Assembly (NCBI RefSeq): GCF_026802175.1
Contig: NZ_CP113797.1
Coordinates: forward strand, 1,093,026-1,157,025
DNA: 64,000 nucleotides
Source of the DNA: Thermocoleostomius sinensis A174
GTDB taxonomy: Bacteria; Cyanobacteriota; Cyanobacteriia; Elainellales; Elainellaceae
Reading direction: 5' to 3'
Shown: positions 9,005 through 62,455 of the stretch, in pieces
Layout: each line of letters opens with the position of its first letter
How positions within the stretch are numbered: position 1 is the first letter of the stretch
Notes under the pieces: model-generated
Told to the model about the DNA's origin: nothing
Seen by the model: the letters and a program-made list of their open reading frames with translations, nothing else
Database searches by the model: none
Position numbers and translations under genes: made by a program

Positions 9005-10102
9005 CTACCTTAATTTTGTTCGCTGAAGTTCACTGAAAAATATCTCGTATCGATCGTACTCCATGTAGTGAATGAGTTTACAAAGATAGGGTTGCCATTC
9101 GTACCGTAAGGAAAGATATAGTTCAATACCTGCTTCTAAATCGGGATTTGTTTCAATTCCCTCCTGCTGTAACCGTTTAATCGCTGTACAATAATGCTCT
9201 CGCCATAGTCGCTCGTTATAATCTCGTTCATCCGAGCGGGCATTAGGTAACAAGGCATGACAAACTTGTTCTAGTAAATGTAATCCGCCACACCAAAGTT
9301 CAGCCGTGGCAGCAGACTCGACAATCGATCGGTATTTGTTAGAATTTAATGCGCTTTGAATCAGAGTTGCTAAATCCATTGCCAGATACATAATGCGAGG
9401 AAGCGCATAGTAACTTTGACGGAAGCGAAAGTAGAGCAGCACTGAATAGGTATTTTGGGATTCCAGGAGGTTCATCAATTCCCTGGCAATGTTGGAAATA
9501 TCTTGCTGAATGTTGTTGAGGTTATCACCCGCGGCAAGGCGCGCGAGGAGTTCAGCCGAACTAGCTGTATCGTTTGTGCGGTGGTGCAGGCTGAGCGCAA
9601 AGGTGTTTCGCCGAATCAACGCACTGTAAACTGACAAAATATAGGTGATGGTCAAAGTAAAAATTGAAAATCCTAACGCCGCTTGCAGGAACATGAGTAA
9701 ACGGTAAGTACCTGTTTTGGGAACAAGATCGCCTGTTCCTAAAGTGGTGAGAGAATAGCCGCTGTAGTAAAGGGCGGTAGCAAAATCTGTTGGTGTTTGT
9801 CCTTCGCTAGCTTGAATAGCGGTTCCTAATCCGCTCCAAACAATGAGAGCAAATCCTAAAACCAACAACAAAACCCACATAACTACGATCGTGAGGATGA
9901 TAGCCGAACCACTATAAGTCAGCAATTGATTCCGTTGCTTTGGAAAAATTTGAGCAACACCGCGAAAAATATACCAAGTTGCTCTGGCAATTTTCGCACT
10001 GAGCAAGCTACTTTCGATCCGTGGATGTAACACTGTTAAATAAATATCTAGGAGGGCTAGAAGAATCAATCCAACGCCCACAGTTTGCACAAAAAAGTTC
10101 AC
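9005..10102 (-). CDS. Two-TM potassium channel family protein
   Basis: The selectivity filter TTLGTGDL in YYSGYSLTTLGTGDLVPK identifies an ion-channel (Ion_trans_2) pore loop. An N-terminal hydrophobic segment (VGLILLALLDIYLTVL), a pore-flanking helix (IVVMWVLLLVLGFALIVW) and another after the filter (FLQAALGFSIFTLTITYIL) anchor it in the membrane. The C-terminal 190 residues are soluble and lack an obvious RCK/TrkA-N Gly-rich motif, so regulation is probably not by the classical NAD-binding domain. The start is GTG, supported by AGGAG nine bases upstream. Family members conduct K+ as tetramers; ion preference here is inferred from the GxGD filter only. Confidence 0.85.
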   Translation of the reverse strand: MNFFVQTVGVGLILLALLDIYLTVLHPRIESSLLSAKIARATWYIFRGVAQIFPKQRNQLLTYSGSAIILTIVVMWVLLLVLGFALIVWSGLGTAIQASEGQTPTDFATALYYSGYSLTTLGTGDLVPKTGTYRLLMFLQAALGFSIFTLTITYILSVYSALIRRNTFALSLHHRTNDTASSAELLARLAAGDNLNNIQQDISNIARELMNLLESQNTYSVLLYFRFRQSYYALPRIMYLAMDLATLIQSALNSNKYRSIVESAATAELWCGGLHLLEQVCHALLPNARSDERDYNERLWREHYCTAIKRLQQEGIETNPDLEAGIELYLSLRYEWQPYLCKLIHYMEYDRYEIFFSELQRTKLR

Positions 10103-57016: not shown

Positions 57017-59446
57017 TTACCCCGTCCCAATTTGCAGAGTTTGAAGCAAGCTATTCAGTTCTCTGGCTTCTGAAGGCATATCTAACCGTCTGAAACAATT
57101 AATGGCTTCTATTGCCCAGTGTTGAGCCGCCGCTCGATCGCCTTGAGCCATGGCTAAATTCGCCAGCGATCGCTGATAGAAGGCTGTTTGATAAGTGCCA
57201 CGCTCAGATTCAGCAATCTGTAGCCCTTGCATCAACAGGTGAGTCGCTACAGTCCATTTCCCTTGCTGAATGGCAATATCTGCTAGCCAATTACGACTGC
57301 GCCAGATTACCCGCTGCCAGTTTATAGCTTGGGCACAATCTAAGGCAGTTTTAAAGTGAAACTCGGCTGATTCATACGCCCCTGCATGAAACTGTACCCG
57401 TCCTTGGTAGTAATGAATTCGGCTTAGCTGCAACAACCGTTCTGTCTCACTTAAAGGATGCCGTTCCAGTAGTTGCATCGCTTGTTCAAACCACGGCTGA
57501 ACGGTTTCAAACTGCGCTTGATGAACCCGCAGTGCCATGATGTTAACCGCTAGATTTAATTGAAATTCTAAGCTTTGATGATGGCGTAGAGACCAAGCTT
57601 CGACATAAAGACGATCGGCTTCCTGAAAATATTCGGGTTGTCCCAAGGCTGTCAGCAGCCAACCTCGACTGGACATCACCTCGGCAGCAACAGCCAGATC
57701 ACGCTGTTGAGCCGTTTGAATCAGCCAATCCATCCATTCAAAGTGCTCATTCCAACATTTCGATCGGTCTTTACGATCGCCTCGAAGATAAATATGTGCT
57801 TCAAATGATTTCCAGAGTGTGTAGAGTTCGTTGTATCGTCCTTCATGCATACACCATTCAATTATTGGCTGAATGTTACCCCATTCTGCTTCTAAAACAT
57901 CATCTTGAGTTTTCCAATCCCACCCATGTTCTCTTTTGTGCGTTTGAGCTAATTTCAAACACCAATTGAGCCAGCGCTCTCGAATGTTCTGCTCGAATAC
58001 TGGATAGTTTTTTAGTTCTGCGATTGCATATTCACGAGTTAGAGGCAATAAGCTGTAAAGATTGCTATCAAGTACAATCAAAGATAATTCCTGAAGTTGA
58101 ACCAAAGCTCGCTCTACAACGTTTCCTGATGAATTTTCGATCGAAGAAACATTTGAAAAATCTTCTGGCAGCGAAAGTTCAATCCACATCTCTCGTGAAA
58201 TTGGTTGTGTAAATAATGAAAGCGACATCAATAATTGATGAGCGAGTTGTCCTTGAATGAGCGCAACTGAATGTTCAAAACAAAAGCGAGCTAAATCTCC
58301 ATTTGCTTGTGTCAACTGCTCTAAAACATAGTCTGCTGAATATCCACCTGCTATTTGTCCAACCGCATAGTGAATGGCAATCGGAATTCCACCTGTTCGT
58401 TCATATAGTTTATATAGATTAGTTTCAGTAAGAGTAATTTTCTTTTCCTGCGTTTCATGATAGATGAGTTGCAAGGCATCAGTTTTAGTGAGAACAGATA
58501 GATGTAGCGGCAAAAAAATTCCTTGCTTGCGCGTGGTAATAATAGCTTTGACTGTCGGAGGCAAGTCGCAGTATAAGAATGACAAAACATCTTGTGGGTT
58601 TTCGATCGTTTCCAGATTGTCGATGATCAACAGCGTCTGAAAACGGGCTAGTGCATCTTTTACAAGTTCGATTTGATCTTCAATGCTTTTACCCGTCGTA
58701 TTAATGTCACCCAAGACACGAGCAATCTGTTGAATGATGTCCTTCAATGTCCGCTGAGGACGGCTAATTCGTTGCAGCAGGCTGAAGGAGGTTAGGAAAT
58801 GCTGTTTGGCTGATGTGAAAACGATGACATCAAATGTTGGAGCTTTCTGAAACCAATCATCAGCACTATGAGCCGCACATAGACATCGGTATGCAACTTC
58901 TACGACTAAAGAGGTTTTCCCAACTCCACCAATACCATCTACGCTTATTAGACGCGCTCTATGTTGAGGTGAAAGTAACTCTAAGAGTTGAGCGATTTCC
59001 TGTTCTCGTCCAACAAATGTACTACAAGTGTGGGCTGGCAAATTATGCCGGGTAGAGGTCGAGGAGGTAGATAATGCAACTGAATTTGGCGATAGTGAAT
59101 TTTCATAAGGCTCTAATGCACCGATCGAATCGGATACTCGATTGCGTTGCTTCGTCCGATCGATCGGTGGCTGCATTAAATTCTTTAAGTTCTTCAACAC
59201 CAAGGGAACAGTTCTGATACTAACCTTTTGCCCGGTTGCTTCTGATAACAATTTCCAAAGTTCTGGGCAGAACAGTCGTTGCACTGTTAAATCCGAATAG
59301 CCCTCCAATCTAACCTCTTTTAATTTTCTACCATCAATAACTTGTTTAAGGATTTCTTTCTGATGAATGGTTAAAGTTTTACCAGTTGCTACGGACAAAC
59401 ATTCATCAGCAATCTCTATTAGTTCTAGAATTTCGGAGATGCTCAT
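57017..59446 (-). CDS. NB-ARC STAND protein with N-terminal HTH-like domain and TPR repeats
   Basis: The 809-residue protein has an N-terminal HTH-like domain of the vWA-MoxR-associated (vMAP) kind (residues 1-90: DECLSVATGKTLTIHQKEIL, LFCPELWKLLSEATGQKVSI), a spacer, then an NB-ARC NTPase from about residue 145. The P-loop is GIGGVGKTSL (171-180), RFQTLLIIDNLETIENPQDV holds Walker B, and GGIPIAIHYAVGQIAGG is the GLPL-like motif. The C-terminal 400 residues are helical repeats of TPR type (QFHAGAYESAEFHFKTALDC, WTVATHLLMQGLQI). STAND proteins are ligand-gated NTPase switches; those with an HTH often regulate transcription. I chose ATG 59446 over TTG 59524, because the HTH begins there. It is divergent from the MauE gene. 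Confidence 0.88.
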   Translation of the reverse strand: MSISEILELIEIADECLSVATGKTLTIHQKEILKQVIDGRKLKEVRLEGYSDLTVQRLFCPELWKLLSEATGQKVSIRTVPLVLKNLKNLMQPPIDRTKQRNRVSDSIGALEPYENSLSPNSVALSTSSTSTRHNLPAHTCSTFVGREQEIAQLLELLSPQHRARLISVDGIGGVGKTSLVVEVAYRCLCAAHSADDWFQKAPTFDVIVFTSAKQHFLTSFSLLQRISRPQRTLKDIIQQIARVLGDINTTGKSIEDQIELVKDALARFQTLLIIDNLETIENPQDVLSFLYCDLPPTVKAIITTRKQGIFLPLHLSVLTKTDALQLIYHETQEKKITLTETNLYKLYERTGGIPIAIHYAVGQIAGGYSADYVLEQLTQANGDLARFCFEHSVALIQGQLAHQLLMSLSLFTQPISREMWIELSLPEDFSNVSSIENSSGNVVERALVQLQELSLIVLDSNLYSLLPLTREYAIAELKNYPVFEQNIRERWLNWCLKLAQTHKREHGWDWKTQDDVLEAEWGNIQPIIEWCMHEGRYNELYTLWKSFEAHIYLRGDRKDRSKCWNEHFEWMDWLIQTAQQRDLAVAAEVMSSRGWLLTALGQPEYFQEADRLYVEAWSLRHHQSLEFQLNLAVNIMALRVHQAQFETVQPWFEQAMQLLERHPLSETERLLQLSRIHYYQGRVQFHAGAYESAEFHFKTALDCAQAINWQRVIWRSRNWLADIAIQQGKWTVATHLLMQGLQIAESERGTYQTAFYQRSLANLAMAQGDRAAAQHWAIEAINCFRRLDMPSEARELNSLLQTLQIGTG

Positions 59447-59907
59447 AATGACTTTTAAAACCCTGTTTTTGCTTAGAATAGCTTGAATTATTTGAAAAAT
59501 TTGATAAATACAACTTTTTCTCAATATTTCAATTGAAACTTATGATTTTTTTGAACAAAATCATTTTCTTCATTTTTTATCAAGTCTTCTCCATTCAATT
59601 GAAGATTTTGAATTACATGCCTAAATATGATTGATATTTTCTGCACAAAATGAACTATTTATCCAGTACTCTGCAAGGATAGGACAGATAGATTCCTCAG
59701 TGGCAGAGCGGTAACAGCAGGTTCAGTGACAGAAACGATCGATTCTCTTACCACGTTTGAGTAATGGGATGCTTCGTTAGCCGAGGTAAGTAGTTTGGAC
59801 TAGTCCAAAGATCGCGTGAGCATTCTGTACAGATGAACGGGTAGTTAGAGTGCTACATTCCACTGAGATTTAGGCTTGTGCAAATTGAATTTGTGCGACA
59901 GGAATAT
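59447..59907. other. Divergent promoter region before the peptide cluster
   Basis: This 461-base AT-rich spacer separates the NB-ARC gene from the peptide cluster. I see no gene or strong repeat. AGGAATAT at 59900 provides a ribosome-binding site for the MauE gene. It is the obvious place to look for an operator of the NB-ARC protein. Confidence 0.4.
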
Positions 59908-60438
59908 ATGTACTACTCATATTTGTTTATCTTTTGCAGAACTTTAGTTTTTTCTGTATTTACAGCATCTTGTTTCTTTAAGGTGAAAAATTTTTCCCGC
60001 TTTGTTCTTACAATTCATCGCTTTGAGATTCTACCAAGTTCGATTGTAAAGATTACTGGTATCTCTATTGTAGGATTAGAGTTACTAGTTATTGGTTTTC
60101 TATTCAGCCATTCATTGATCGCATTTGGACTAGCAACGGTTTTGTTAATTCTATTTACATTGGCTTTGATCTCAAGTTTGTGGCGTAACCTTAAGATTCA
60201 ATGCAATTGTTTTGGAACGAGTCAACATCCCATCTCTTCGATCGATTTAGTACGAAACGCTATCTTTCTAGTGTGTTCCAGTGTCGGTGGTTGGTTGGCG
60301 CTTCAACCCCACATGCAGGTAAAACTCTCATTTGTAGATTCAGTATCCGCTAGCTTCATAGCTCTTATTTTCACACTAGTATTGTCAAACTTAAGTGAGC
60401 TTTACTACCTGTATGATCCTGCCAAGGTGCGGAGCTAG
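59908..60438 (+). CDS. MauE/DoxX-like redox-associated membrane protein
   Basis: The protein (about 176 residues) is a four-helix membrane protein of the MauE/DoxX class: YYSYLFIFCRTLVFSVFTAS, ITGISIVGLELLVIGFLF, LATVLLILFTLALISSLW and a C-terminal pair. The CNCFG motif (Cys99, Cys101 in LKIQCNCFGTS) is the characteristic redox or metal motif of MauE-type proteins, which help disulfide formation in methylamine dehydrogenase and in peptide clusters. Start ATG 59908 has AGGA four bases upstream; the frame extends to GTG 59878. It is followed by a thioredoxin-like gene. Its role as electron acceptor for that protein is inferred. Confidence 0.75.
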   Translation: MYYSYLFIFCRTLVFSVFTASCFFKVKNFSRFVLTIHRFEILPSSIVKITGISIVGLELLVIGFLFSHSLIAFGLATVLLILFTLALISSLWRNLKIQCNCFGTSQHPISSIDLVRNAIFLVCSSVGGWLALQPHMQVKLSFVDSVSASFIALIFTLVLSNLSELYYLYDPAKVRS

Positions 60439-61190: not shown

Positions 61191-61442
61191 ATGAACAAGC
61201 TAACAAACAAGCTATTTAGCAAGGTACTTGATCTGACTCAAGCCTCCAACCCCCTGGTTAACCTTGCTGATGCACTTTTGAGTCATTTGGTTCGCAAGGA
61301 TACGGCGGCTGCGTCCTGCTACATTTCCTACGGTAGGTGCTTCTACAGCTACTACTATTATGCATATATTCAGCGCCGTTGGAGGTGCTGTTATACCTGG
61401 TGGGGTAGACGCTGCCGCTATTTAGGACTCTACTACTGCTAG
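61191..61442 (+). CDS. Cys/Tyr-rich secreted-peptide precursor (leader + 42-residue tail)
   Basis: The 83-residue frame splits into two unlike parts. Residues 1-41 form an amphipathic helical leader (NKLTNKLFSKVLDLTQASNP, LVNLADALLSHLVRKDTAAA) without a Gly-Gly site but with an AAA end that fits a signal-peptidase AXA site. Residues 42-83 are a tail with Cys at 43, 50, 66, 67, 75 and 83, twelve Tyr, three Trp, seven Arg and no Asp, Glu or Lys. AAGGA lies eight bases before the ATG. Neighbours are a redox pair before and an S26 peptidase and ABC exporter after. I do not recognise a named family; a bacteriocin-like or RiPP-like disulfide-rich peptide is inferred. Leader cleavage between Ala41 and Ser42 is a prediction. 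Confidence 0.75.
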   Translation: MNKLTNKLFSKVLDLTQASNPLVNLADALLSHLVRKDTAAASCYISYGRCFYSYYYYAYIQRRWRCCYTWWGRRCRYLGLYYC

Positions 61443-61462: not shown

Positions 61463-61535
61463 CACCTGGGCTAGTTCTATATGCCTATGGCAGGTGGGTC
61501 GCTAGTGGCAGCCTACCGCTAGCGATCTGTCTTAA
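61463..61535 (+). terminator. Hairpin between precursor gene and peptidase gene (possible attenuator)
   Basis: TCGCTAGTGG (61499-61508) and CCGCTAGCGA (61516-61525) form a ten-base stem with one mismatch, followed by TCTGTCTT; further upstream CACCTG and CAGGTG can also pair. It lies in the 105-base gap after the precursor gene and could limit read-through into the peptidase and exporter genes. Confidence 0.5.
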
Positions 61536-61547
61536 AACAACTTACGA

Positions 61548-62198
61548 GTGAACTCGTTCCACCGTAAATCAATGCAACTCATTGGAATTGTAGTTATTGT
61601 TAGTTTGCTGATTGGCGTAGGAGCAACTGCGTTCCTACGCTTTTGCTTCACTATCACAACAGTCTGTGGCGACAGCATGTCCCCCGCCTTAGAAGATGGC
61701 GATCGACTACTGACCTTTAATCTTTTGCCTCACCTTTGGTTGCAACACGGGCAAATCGTAGTTGGGGAATTAGAAATGCTGAACGTGTCACCTGCCATCA
61801 ATCACGCATTCTCAGAATATATCAATACGTCAGAACCGGGGGAGTTAGATCTCATTCCGTCTGAAGCGGAACTGCTTGGTCAAGTCGATGTAAAAGTAGA
61901 GATGGAACCAGAGTCCTCTAAATTCATCAAACGCATTGCTGGCTTATCAGGCGATACAATCACGATTTCTCTCTCTAGCTTACATGCATTTATGCAAGCC
62001 ATGCTGAAAGAGCAAGGTAATGCTGAAGGCAATGTTGTTTGGCAGGTGCCAGACAATCACTGTTTTGTTCGGGGAGACAGTTTAGTTTGCGCAGATTCAT
62101 TATTGGTTGGTCCAATTCCAATCTCTGCCATCACTGGCATTGTGATTCTGAAGTTACCACATGCATCATCAAACAGCTTGACTCAACCATTGCTTTAA
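61548..62198 (+). CDS. S26 family signal peptidase
   Basis: The protein is a type I signal peptidase-like Ser/Lys protease. One N-terminal helix (LIGIVVIVSLLIGVGATAFL) anchors it; the catalytic Ser43 lies in CGDSMSPALEDGDRLL and the Lys128 in FIKRIAGLSGD, and HCFVRGDSLVCADSLLVGPI is box E. A segment of about 60 residues between the Ser and Lys boxes is longer than in minimal S26 enzymes. The start is GTG 61548 or ATG 61572, without a clear ribosome-binding site. As it follows the precursor directly, it probably removes its leader, although a general role cannot be excluded. Confidence 0.9.
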   Translation: MNSFHRKSMQLIGIVVIVSLLIGVGATAFLRFCFTITTVCGDSMSPALEDGDRLLTFNLLPHLWLQHGQIVVGELEMLNVSPAINHAFSEYINTSEPGELDLIPSEAELLGQVDVKVEMEPESSKFIKRIAGLSGDTITISLSSLHAFMQAMLKEQGNAEGNVVWQVPDNHCFVRGDSLVCADSLLVGPIPISAITGIVILKLPHASSNSLTQPLL

Positions 62199-62261: not shown

Positions 62262-62372
62262 CCGCGTCACAAATTTCGGTCCTCTTCCTCAATCCCTCTC
62301 CTAACGTGAGAGAGAGCTTTCAATCCGGTTCCCCTTCATCCTTTTGGGGAGAAGGGGTTAGGGGATGAGGGC
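62262..62372. repeat. Interspersed palindromic repeat, copy F
   Basis: CTCAATCCCTCTCCTAACG and GAGAGAGAGCTTT start the block, and TTTTGGGGAGAAGGGGTTAG with GGGATGAGGGCAGC ends it, as in copies B and E. It lies between the S26 and ABC genes. Confidence 0.7.
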
Positions 62373-62455
62373 AGCTTGGCACAAAAGCGTCCGGACTACT
62401 CAAATTACTCAAATTTTTATTCTTTTTCGGATTACACAAATAGAGTGATATTGAT

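Follow-up and report, generated by a model that had tools for sequence, protein, structure and literature searches.

A precursor family of probable disulfide-rich, bacteriocin-like peptides with a dedicated secretory-oxidative gene cassette in cyanobacteria and actinomycetes

Antibacterial peptides rich in disulfides are widespread among animals and plants; to our knowledge, few have been characterised in bacteria. Laterosporulins, the defensin-like bacteriocins of Brevibacillus (PDB 4ozk, 6lwy and 6lwz), are small peptides with six Cys residues, the gene of which appears in the available text of PMC3293901 as a bare 50-codon ORF beside genes for a regulator, a hypothetical protein, an ABC transporter and a dehydrogenase. 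Actifensins of Actinomyces, as described in the accessible part of PMC6989792, consist of a leader and a 37-residue six-Cys core, occur in tandem divergent copies and are accompanied by ABC transporters. A third report, known to us through the excerpt of PMC7794033, used decRiPPter to predict in silico three Streptomyces families with mauE, one of them also with mauD; the precursors of the mauE families have at least eight Cys residues, the families hold no other mau genes, and disulfide formation was suggested. Among the open-access papers listed, we found none on the cassette described below besides PMC7794033, and nothing experimental. By word search, the main text of a review on RiPP leader proteases from 2023 contains neither “signal peptidase” nor “S26”.

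Here we analysed a 64,000-nucleotide stretch (the window) of a 5.8-Mb genome assembled as a single contig. It encodes, on one strand and in this order, a MauE-family protein, a redoxin, a short Cys-rich ORF, an S26 signal peptidase and an ABC exporter (Table 1). We consider it probable that the short ORF encodes, as a precursor, a secreted and disulfide-locked peptide that this dedicated five-gene cassette produces; the most likely role of the peptide is to inhibit bacterial competitors, as a defensin-like bacteriocin would.

Table 1. Features of the precursor locus; positions are those of the window.
Feature	Position	Strand	Basis
MauE-family membrane protein, 186 aa, C-x-C-F-G motif	59878..60438	+	Pfam MauE, E 3.7e-22; CxCFG invariant in 7/7 aligned
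Membrane-anchored TlpA/ResA-like redoxin, 186 aa, C85-x-x-C88	60502..61062	+	AhpC-TSA, E 1e-16; CxxC invariant in 7/7
Precursor peptide, ATG start, 83 aa	61191..61442	+	ORF and homologues
Leader, residues 1-41, A-A-A (AxA) end, without long hydrophobic core	61191..61313	+	Leader alignment, uncharged runs
Core, residues 42-83, six Cys, C-6-C-15-CC-7-C-7-C	61314..61439	+	Cys spacing; AlphaFold2 pLDDT 88-96 over residues 41-83
RNA hairpin, 17 bp, directly 3' of the precursor stop, no T run	61492..61532	+	z -2.39
S26 signal peptidase, up to 216 aa, Ser43 and Lys128 (GTG-start numbering)	61548..62198	+	Peptidase_S26, E 5.1e-13; TIGR02227 over cut-off
ABC exporter (TMD-NBD), 614 aa	62456..64000, continuing outside the window to about 64300	+	Pfam ABC_membrane and ABC_tran

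The pairing of MauE and a MauD-like redoxin with a small Cys-rich precursor resembles the decRiPPter MauE families, which, compared by description, very probably represent one type of system with it. The excerpt of PMC7794033 states the minimum of eight Cys residues of its own families and not as a definition, compared to six in the window peptide and eight in its five cyanobacterial relatives; the families there are from Streptomyces only, and neither a leader motif nor an S26 step nor relatives beyond that genus are given in the excerpt. The window core is a small six-Cys peptide like the laterosporulins, without any sequence match to them, and it comes with a 41-residue conserved leader and a cassette, neither of which accompanies the laterosporulin gene in the text available of PMC3293901. 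A leader with a six-Cys core, tandem divergent copies and ABC transport are shared with the actifensins; however, their motif C-X5-12-C-X3-C-X9-10-C-X4-5-C-X-C does not fit the window spacing, and their G-X-E boundary and subtilisin-like protease gene differ from the AxA end and S26 enzyme found here (PMC6989792, accessible part). TMcins likewise combine a peptide with a dedicated protease, a disulfide enzyme and an ABC exporter, but differ in having a transmembrane helix, an S2P-type protease, a DsbA-like enzyme and one disulfide (PMC13252029, in the portion available).

The redoxin has an N-terminal hydrophobic segment and is matched by the ResA and MauD models below their cut-offs (MauD similarity, E 4.8e-9), and the catalytic Ser and Lys of the signal peptidase are invariant in all seven aligned sequences. 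PADLOC matched none of four proteins of the cassette. Beyond the exporter, Pfam revealed an HlyD-type adaptor followed by a MacB-like FtsX permease. The presence of MauE and a MauD-like redoxin in the operon would also suit a Cys-rich protein that binds metal or senses redox state and relies on this couple, as in methylamine dehydrogenase maturation. We regard such a protein as highly improbable: no methylamine dehydrogenase light chain exceeded the cut-off in the window genome, which gave two weak, interrupted matches, the Cys spacings differ widely between family members, unlike a metal site, and the AxA leader, signal peptidase and exporter all point outward. The hairpin behind the precursor gene is a possible attenuator or stabiliser; such hairpins are clear in three of five loci (the window, L022 and L029) and not in L027 and L028. 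Sigma-70-like sites and T-tailed terminators did not rise above shuffled controls. Between the signal peptidase and exporter genes lies a repeat element (62350-62376), the 26-base motif of which recurs at six places in the genome at up to two mismatches and nowhere in the reversed control. Directly upstream of the cassette, on the opposite strand, is a gene for an NB-ARC/STAND ATPase with a TPR-like region (57017-59524).

The tail of the precursor, Ser42 to Cys83, indeed has the composition that an earlier note had read from the letters: its 42 residues include 12 Tyr, six Cys (positions 43, 50, 66, 67, 75 and 83), seven Arg and three Trp, and no Asp or Glu, nor any Lys or His. The claim that this is far from random is well founded. 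Among 13,376 segments of 42 residues (ORFs of at least 150 residues, both strands of the 64 kb), the maxima were seven Tyr and five Cys, and a six-frame scan for 42-residue stretches with at least six Cys, at least ten Tyr and no acidic residue returned a single place; moreover, the six Cys are invariant in all six cyanobacterial precursors, which occupy the same operon position. The ORF is short, with no Pfam and no credible NCBIfam match, and the scanned precursors of the family matched no family of either collection, as might be expected of a chance ORF of strange composition. That reading is nevertheless refuted, because homologues occur in five more species at the same operon position with all Cys kept, and its probability is close to nil. 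Judged by this conservation, the precursor gene is real.

The Tyr run, which the earlier note had pointed out as very unusual, is not conserved, and the 12 Tyr residues are the top count of 53 precursors, the next being eight. The acid-free tail is true of the window peptide but no family rule, only seven of the 53 cores lacking Asp and Glu. Across the aligned family, Tyr richness is a private decoration of the window species' peptide and no family trait. Twelve Tyr and three Trp in one core could speak for a RiPP with enzyme-made Tyr or Cys crosslinks (thioether or biaryl) instead of plain disulfides, and oxidative Tyr crosslinking had indeed been suggested. This idea is not borne out and seems very unlikely to us: the cassette consists of thiol-redox, peptidase and transport genes only, with no radical SAM, P450, YcaO or lanthionine enzyme among the genes scanned, and the even Cys counts described below, together with the thiol-redox partners, fit disulfides.

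Searched alone against 60 relatives, the window precursor found one real homologue (G017, E 1.1e-4), with the same gene order; the other matches (26 of the 60 genomes were matched at E up to 1) had E of at least 0.0025 and were taken as chance. A two-row precursor profile picked out 2 of 388 genomes of the cyanobacterial class, the window genome included, a redoxin profile gave the same two, and one of 214 genomes in the order of Nostoc sp. B holds the cassette; its rarity in these genome sets counts against our explanation. An exporter scan of named genome contigs yielded nine loci, five of them cyanobacterial, one from Streptosporangium and three remote. With 67-72% exporter identity to the window, the five cyanobacterial loci, from Cyanomargarita calcarea, Nostoc sp. 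B(2019), Komarekiella atlantica, Scytonematopsis contorta and Phormidium tenue FACHB-886, all hold MauE, redoxin, precursor, S26 and exporter in the window order. HlyD and FtsX genes follow the exporter in P. tenue, C. calcarea (where HlyD is split into two ORFs), Nostoc and Komarekiella, and not in Scytonematopsis.

The exporter of Streptosporangium sp. KLBMP 9127 is 38% identical to that of the window, and its locus contains the same five families in shuffled order: MauE, S26, a precursor-like ORF (9058-9306), redoxin and exporter. With the Streptosporangium redoxin as query, 30 matches were obtained in 11 of 197 actinomycete genomes. A profile of 26 precursors revealed a precursor ORF in each of the 14-kb regions around 20 of these matches, 10 of which had contributed no precursor to the profile. 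Three remaining redoxin matches were also checked: L059 has precursor, redoxin and MauE within 3.5 kb, and L062 and L076, which are short contig ends, showed none. With a 40-row precursor profile, we obtained 48 matches, spread over 14 of 296 genomes. Used alone, the precursor profile led to six loci in four new genomes that had no redoxin match before (two each in G864 and G888, one each in G820 and G839), all six of which carry all five genes. The controls of the precursor profile (440,714 reversed bases, positions 1-59000 of the window, and L032-L034) were empty.

Altogether, 33 actinomycete regions chosen for a redoxin or precursor match (L080-L099 and L131-L143) contain a precursor in every case and all five genes in 27. 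The six incomplete ones count against our explanation: L088 and L089 miss one gene, L097 and L138 have no MauE, L140 is without MauE and redoxin, and L137 holds the precursor alone. Exporter matches were also found on named actinomycete plasmids, where the four loci opened, out of 56 records, hold all five genes. On a large plasmid of Streptomyces clavuligerus, two tandem precursors (L144, 4012-4218 and 4304-4504), both annotated as hypothetical proteins, lie beside MauE, redoxin, exporter and S26.

The precursors themselves link the two phyla less firmly. A profile built from cyanobacterial precursors only gave six weak matches (E 0.0017 to 0.36) in the genome of Streptosporangium, of which five were confirmed by a later profile, with four of them already among its own rows. 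Against our explanation, the actinomycete precursors scored just E 0.0017-0.07 with the cyanobacterial profile, and the Streptosporangium precursor of L031 was not listed. Its loose matches in G391 (E 0.05), G392 (E 0.47) and contig C23 of G388 (E 0.36) were set aside, no precursor being traced there, and the stretches L048 and L049 yielded no precursor match. The linkage of the cassette genes is stronger evidence for kinship across the phyla than the precursor match, and common descent of the cores is likely on these comparisons, short of being proven.

The division into a leader and a separate core, proposed in the earlier note, is borne out, the overall interpretation of that note being only partly supported. 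A leader pattern D-x-L-L..LVP...AxA is recognisable in both cyanobacteria and actinomycetes, and the start of the core at the AAA/S boundary is supported: under a liberal pattern, 52 of the 53 precursors have a leader that ends in AxA, and the remaining one ends in A-A-G. A-x-A before the cut is the rule for signal peptidase I. At position 35, where at least 90% carry Pro, the window leader has Arg, which counts against our explanation. As had been noted, the precursor has no GG site and is not of the Nif11/C39 type; those double-glycine peptides combine such a site with an exporter C39 domain, which is likewise absent here (Pfam scan of residues 1-514 of 614). The longest uncharged run over the 53 leaders is at most 13 residues (median 7), and the best 15-residue Kyte-Doolittle score has a median of 0.7, where the membrane segments of the redoxin and the signal peptidase reach 2.2-2.95. 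By these measures, the leader is too polar to be a Sec signal.

From a non-Sec leader, an exporter without C39, an AxA end and the invariant Ser and Lys of S26, we infer that the peptide is first exported, then oxidised by redoxin and MauE, and finally cleaved by S26. The short polar leader would bring the precursor, still reduced, to the ABC exporter. The redoxin, kept oxidised through the CxCFG motif of MauE, would form the disulfides outside the membrane with its CxxC motif, and the cassette signal peptidase would then cut after A-x-A between Ala41 and Ser42, eventually freeing a 42-residue cationic β-sheet peptide with three disulfides. Its calculated monoisotopic mass is 5569.43 Da with the three disulfides and 5575.48 Da in the reduced form. 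The HlyD-type adaptor and MacB-like permease of the window genome may serve outer-membrane passage or self-protection.

The three disulfides suggested earlier are plausible, as the Cys pattern is kept and Cys numbers are even, as expected for disulfides. The other five cyanobacterial precursors have eight Cys residues, arranged as C1-x3/4-C2-x2-C3-x6-C4-x3-C5C6-x4/7-C7-x8-C8. In four of the five, C1 and C3 are separated by exactly six residues, which equals the window spacing, so the window Cys fit as C1, C3 and C5-C8, with C2 and C4 missing together. The window peptide thus appears to lack one Cys pair present in its relatives, and the joint loss of C2 and C4, a single event, suggests that these two pair with each other. 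We quote Cys parity on whole proteins because leader boundaries that were called automatically put the cut at a wrong place for some of them (three uncalled and three odd counts in one run, two odd in another). On this basis, 52 of 53 distinct precursors have an even count, as do all seven held-out ones; the exception among the 53 carries one Cys inside its leader. Clustering the 53 at 45% identity left 19 clusters, 17 of which are all-even by automatic core boundaries; the other two deviate through boundary errors.

Six is the commonest Cys number, but the spacing varies widely between members; the window-type order C-C-CC-C-C occurs in 15 of 32 six-Cys precursors. This is also the order of eukaryotic inhibitor-cystine-knot peptides, in which pairs 1-4, 2-5 and 3-6 form the knot; the likeness is one of order alone, and the loops of the window core are longer than the usual ranges of such knots.

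AlphaFold2 prediction of the window precursor from 22 rows gave an all-β core (pLDDT 88-96; pTM 0.43) with predicted strands at residues 43-47, 51-53, 58-69 and 72-82, and leader helices 3-18 and 22-33 of low confidence. The full-length alignment A14 was used for structure, as MAFFT of the cores alone misplaced the first two window Cys. An actinomycete core model reached a pLDDT of 87.8. Foldseek against the PDB listed nothing at E 0.001 for either model. VIA-align against 589 chains placed laterosporulin, laterosporulin3 and laterosporulin10 at the top (Z 4.8, 4.8 and 4.7; 41-42 residues; RMSD 2.0-2.3), the next unrelated row having Z 4.1; this match on a predicted model is weak (Z under 8), and at such a level the tool itself notes that Z may mean just a common arrangement. 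For the actinomycete core model, VIA-align did not list laterosporulin, which counts against our explanation. HMMER searches of PDB sequences gave no match for A14 at E 1 or for alignment A12 at E 10, and for the cores of L134 and of the window peptide a single row apiece, taken as chance.

Across the family, the cores vary widely while the leader stays recognisable. A Ka/Ks near one over the tail, which the earlier note held to argue against a functional core, was found in two of nine pairs, both actinomycete; in the four pairs from cyanobacteria, dN of the core lies well below dS, and in the closest of these, Nostoc/Komarekiella, the value rests on three core changes. Core dN is also below dS in L069/L071, L082/L084 and L063/L143. 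The two exceptional pairs are the L051 copies, with dN/dS of 0.157/0.142 in the core and 0.02/0.09 in the leader, and L083/L131, with 0.068/0 in the core, every Cys being kept in both. Such dN values in the core, equal to dS or higher, suit a diversifying peptide better than a decaying one, on few changes, although these pairs also count against our explanation.

Three tandem precursors each, with leaders alike and cores diverging, occur in two actinomycete genomes (L080, 8798-9546; L099, 5441-6033). Orphan precursors (L043, L044, L045, L047 and L137, in the Streptosporangium genome and in G523) have no cassette gene within 13-14 kb; they may use the machinery in trans, and that of L047 looks truncated. 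With the same cassette and disulfide-locked secreted peptide, the product could instead be a signal, an adhesion factor or a surface component, for example of filaments or biofilm. The orphans far from any cassette gene agree with such a role, as do the acidic or near-neutral cores of some members. We hold it possible but rather unlikely, since hypervariable cores, tandem copies and patchy distribution are more typical of competition molecules; the tandem, fast-changing cores of some actinomycetes speak for a bacteriocin.

Taking genes and neighbourhoods as evidence, the precursor family looks ordinary but is uncatalogued, is served by a dedicated secretory-oxidative cassette, and is probably in kind one of disulfide-rich bacteriocin-like peptides. 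In broader terms, it may or may not be, with about equal weight on either side, that two or more phyla hold an uncatalogued arsenal of defensin-like or knottin-like disulfide peptides, for which the cassette is a platform and the core is free to change, and that AxA leader, C39-less ABC export, private MauE/redoxin oxidation and private signal peptidase form a route not described for RiPP leaders. A cassette that couples an oxidation pair with a signal peptidase and an exporter would account for the production of such peptides, and the leader with MauE, redoxin, S26 and ABC genes would offer both a search handle for many more and a compact production system. In two of the cyanobacterial loci, asparagine-synthase-family genes lie near the cassette (Komarekiella, L028, 18944-20842; Scytonematopsis, L029, 12192-14108), which by resemblance we presume might be lasso-peptide cyclases.
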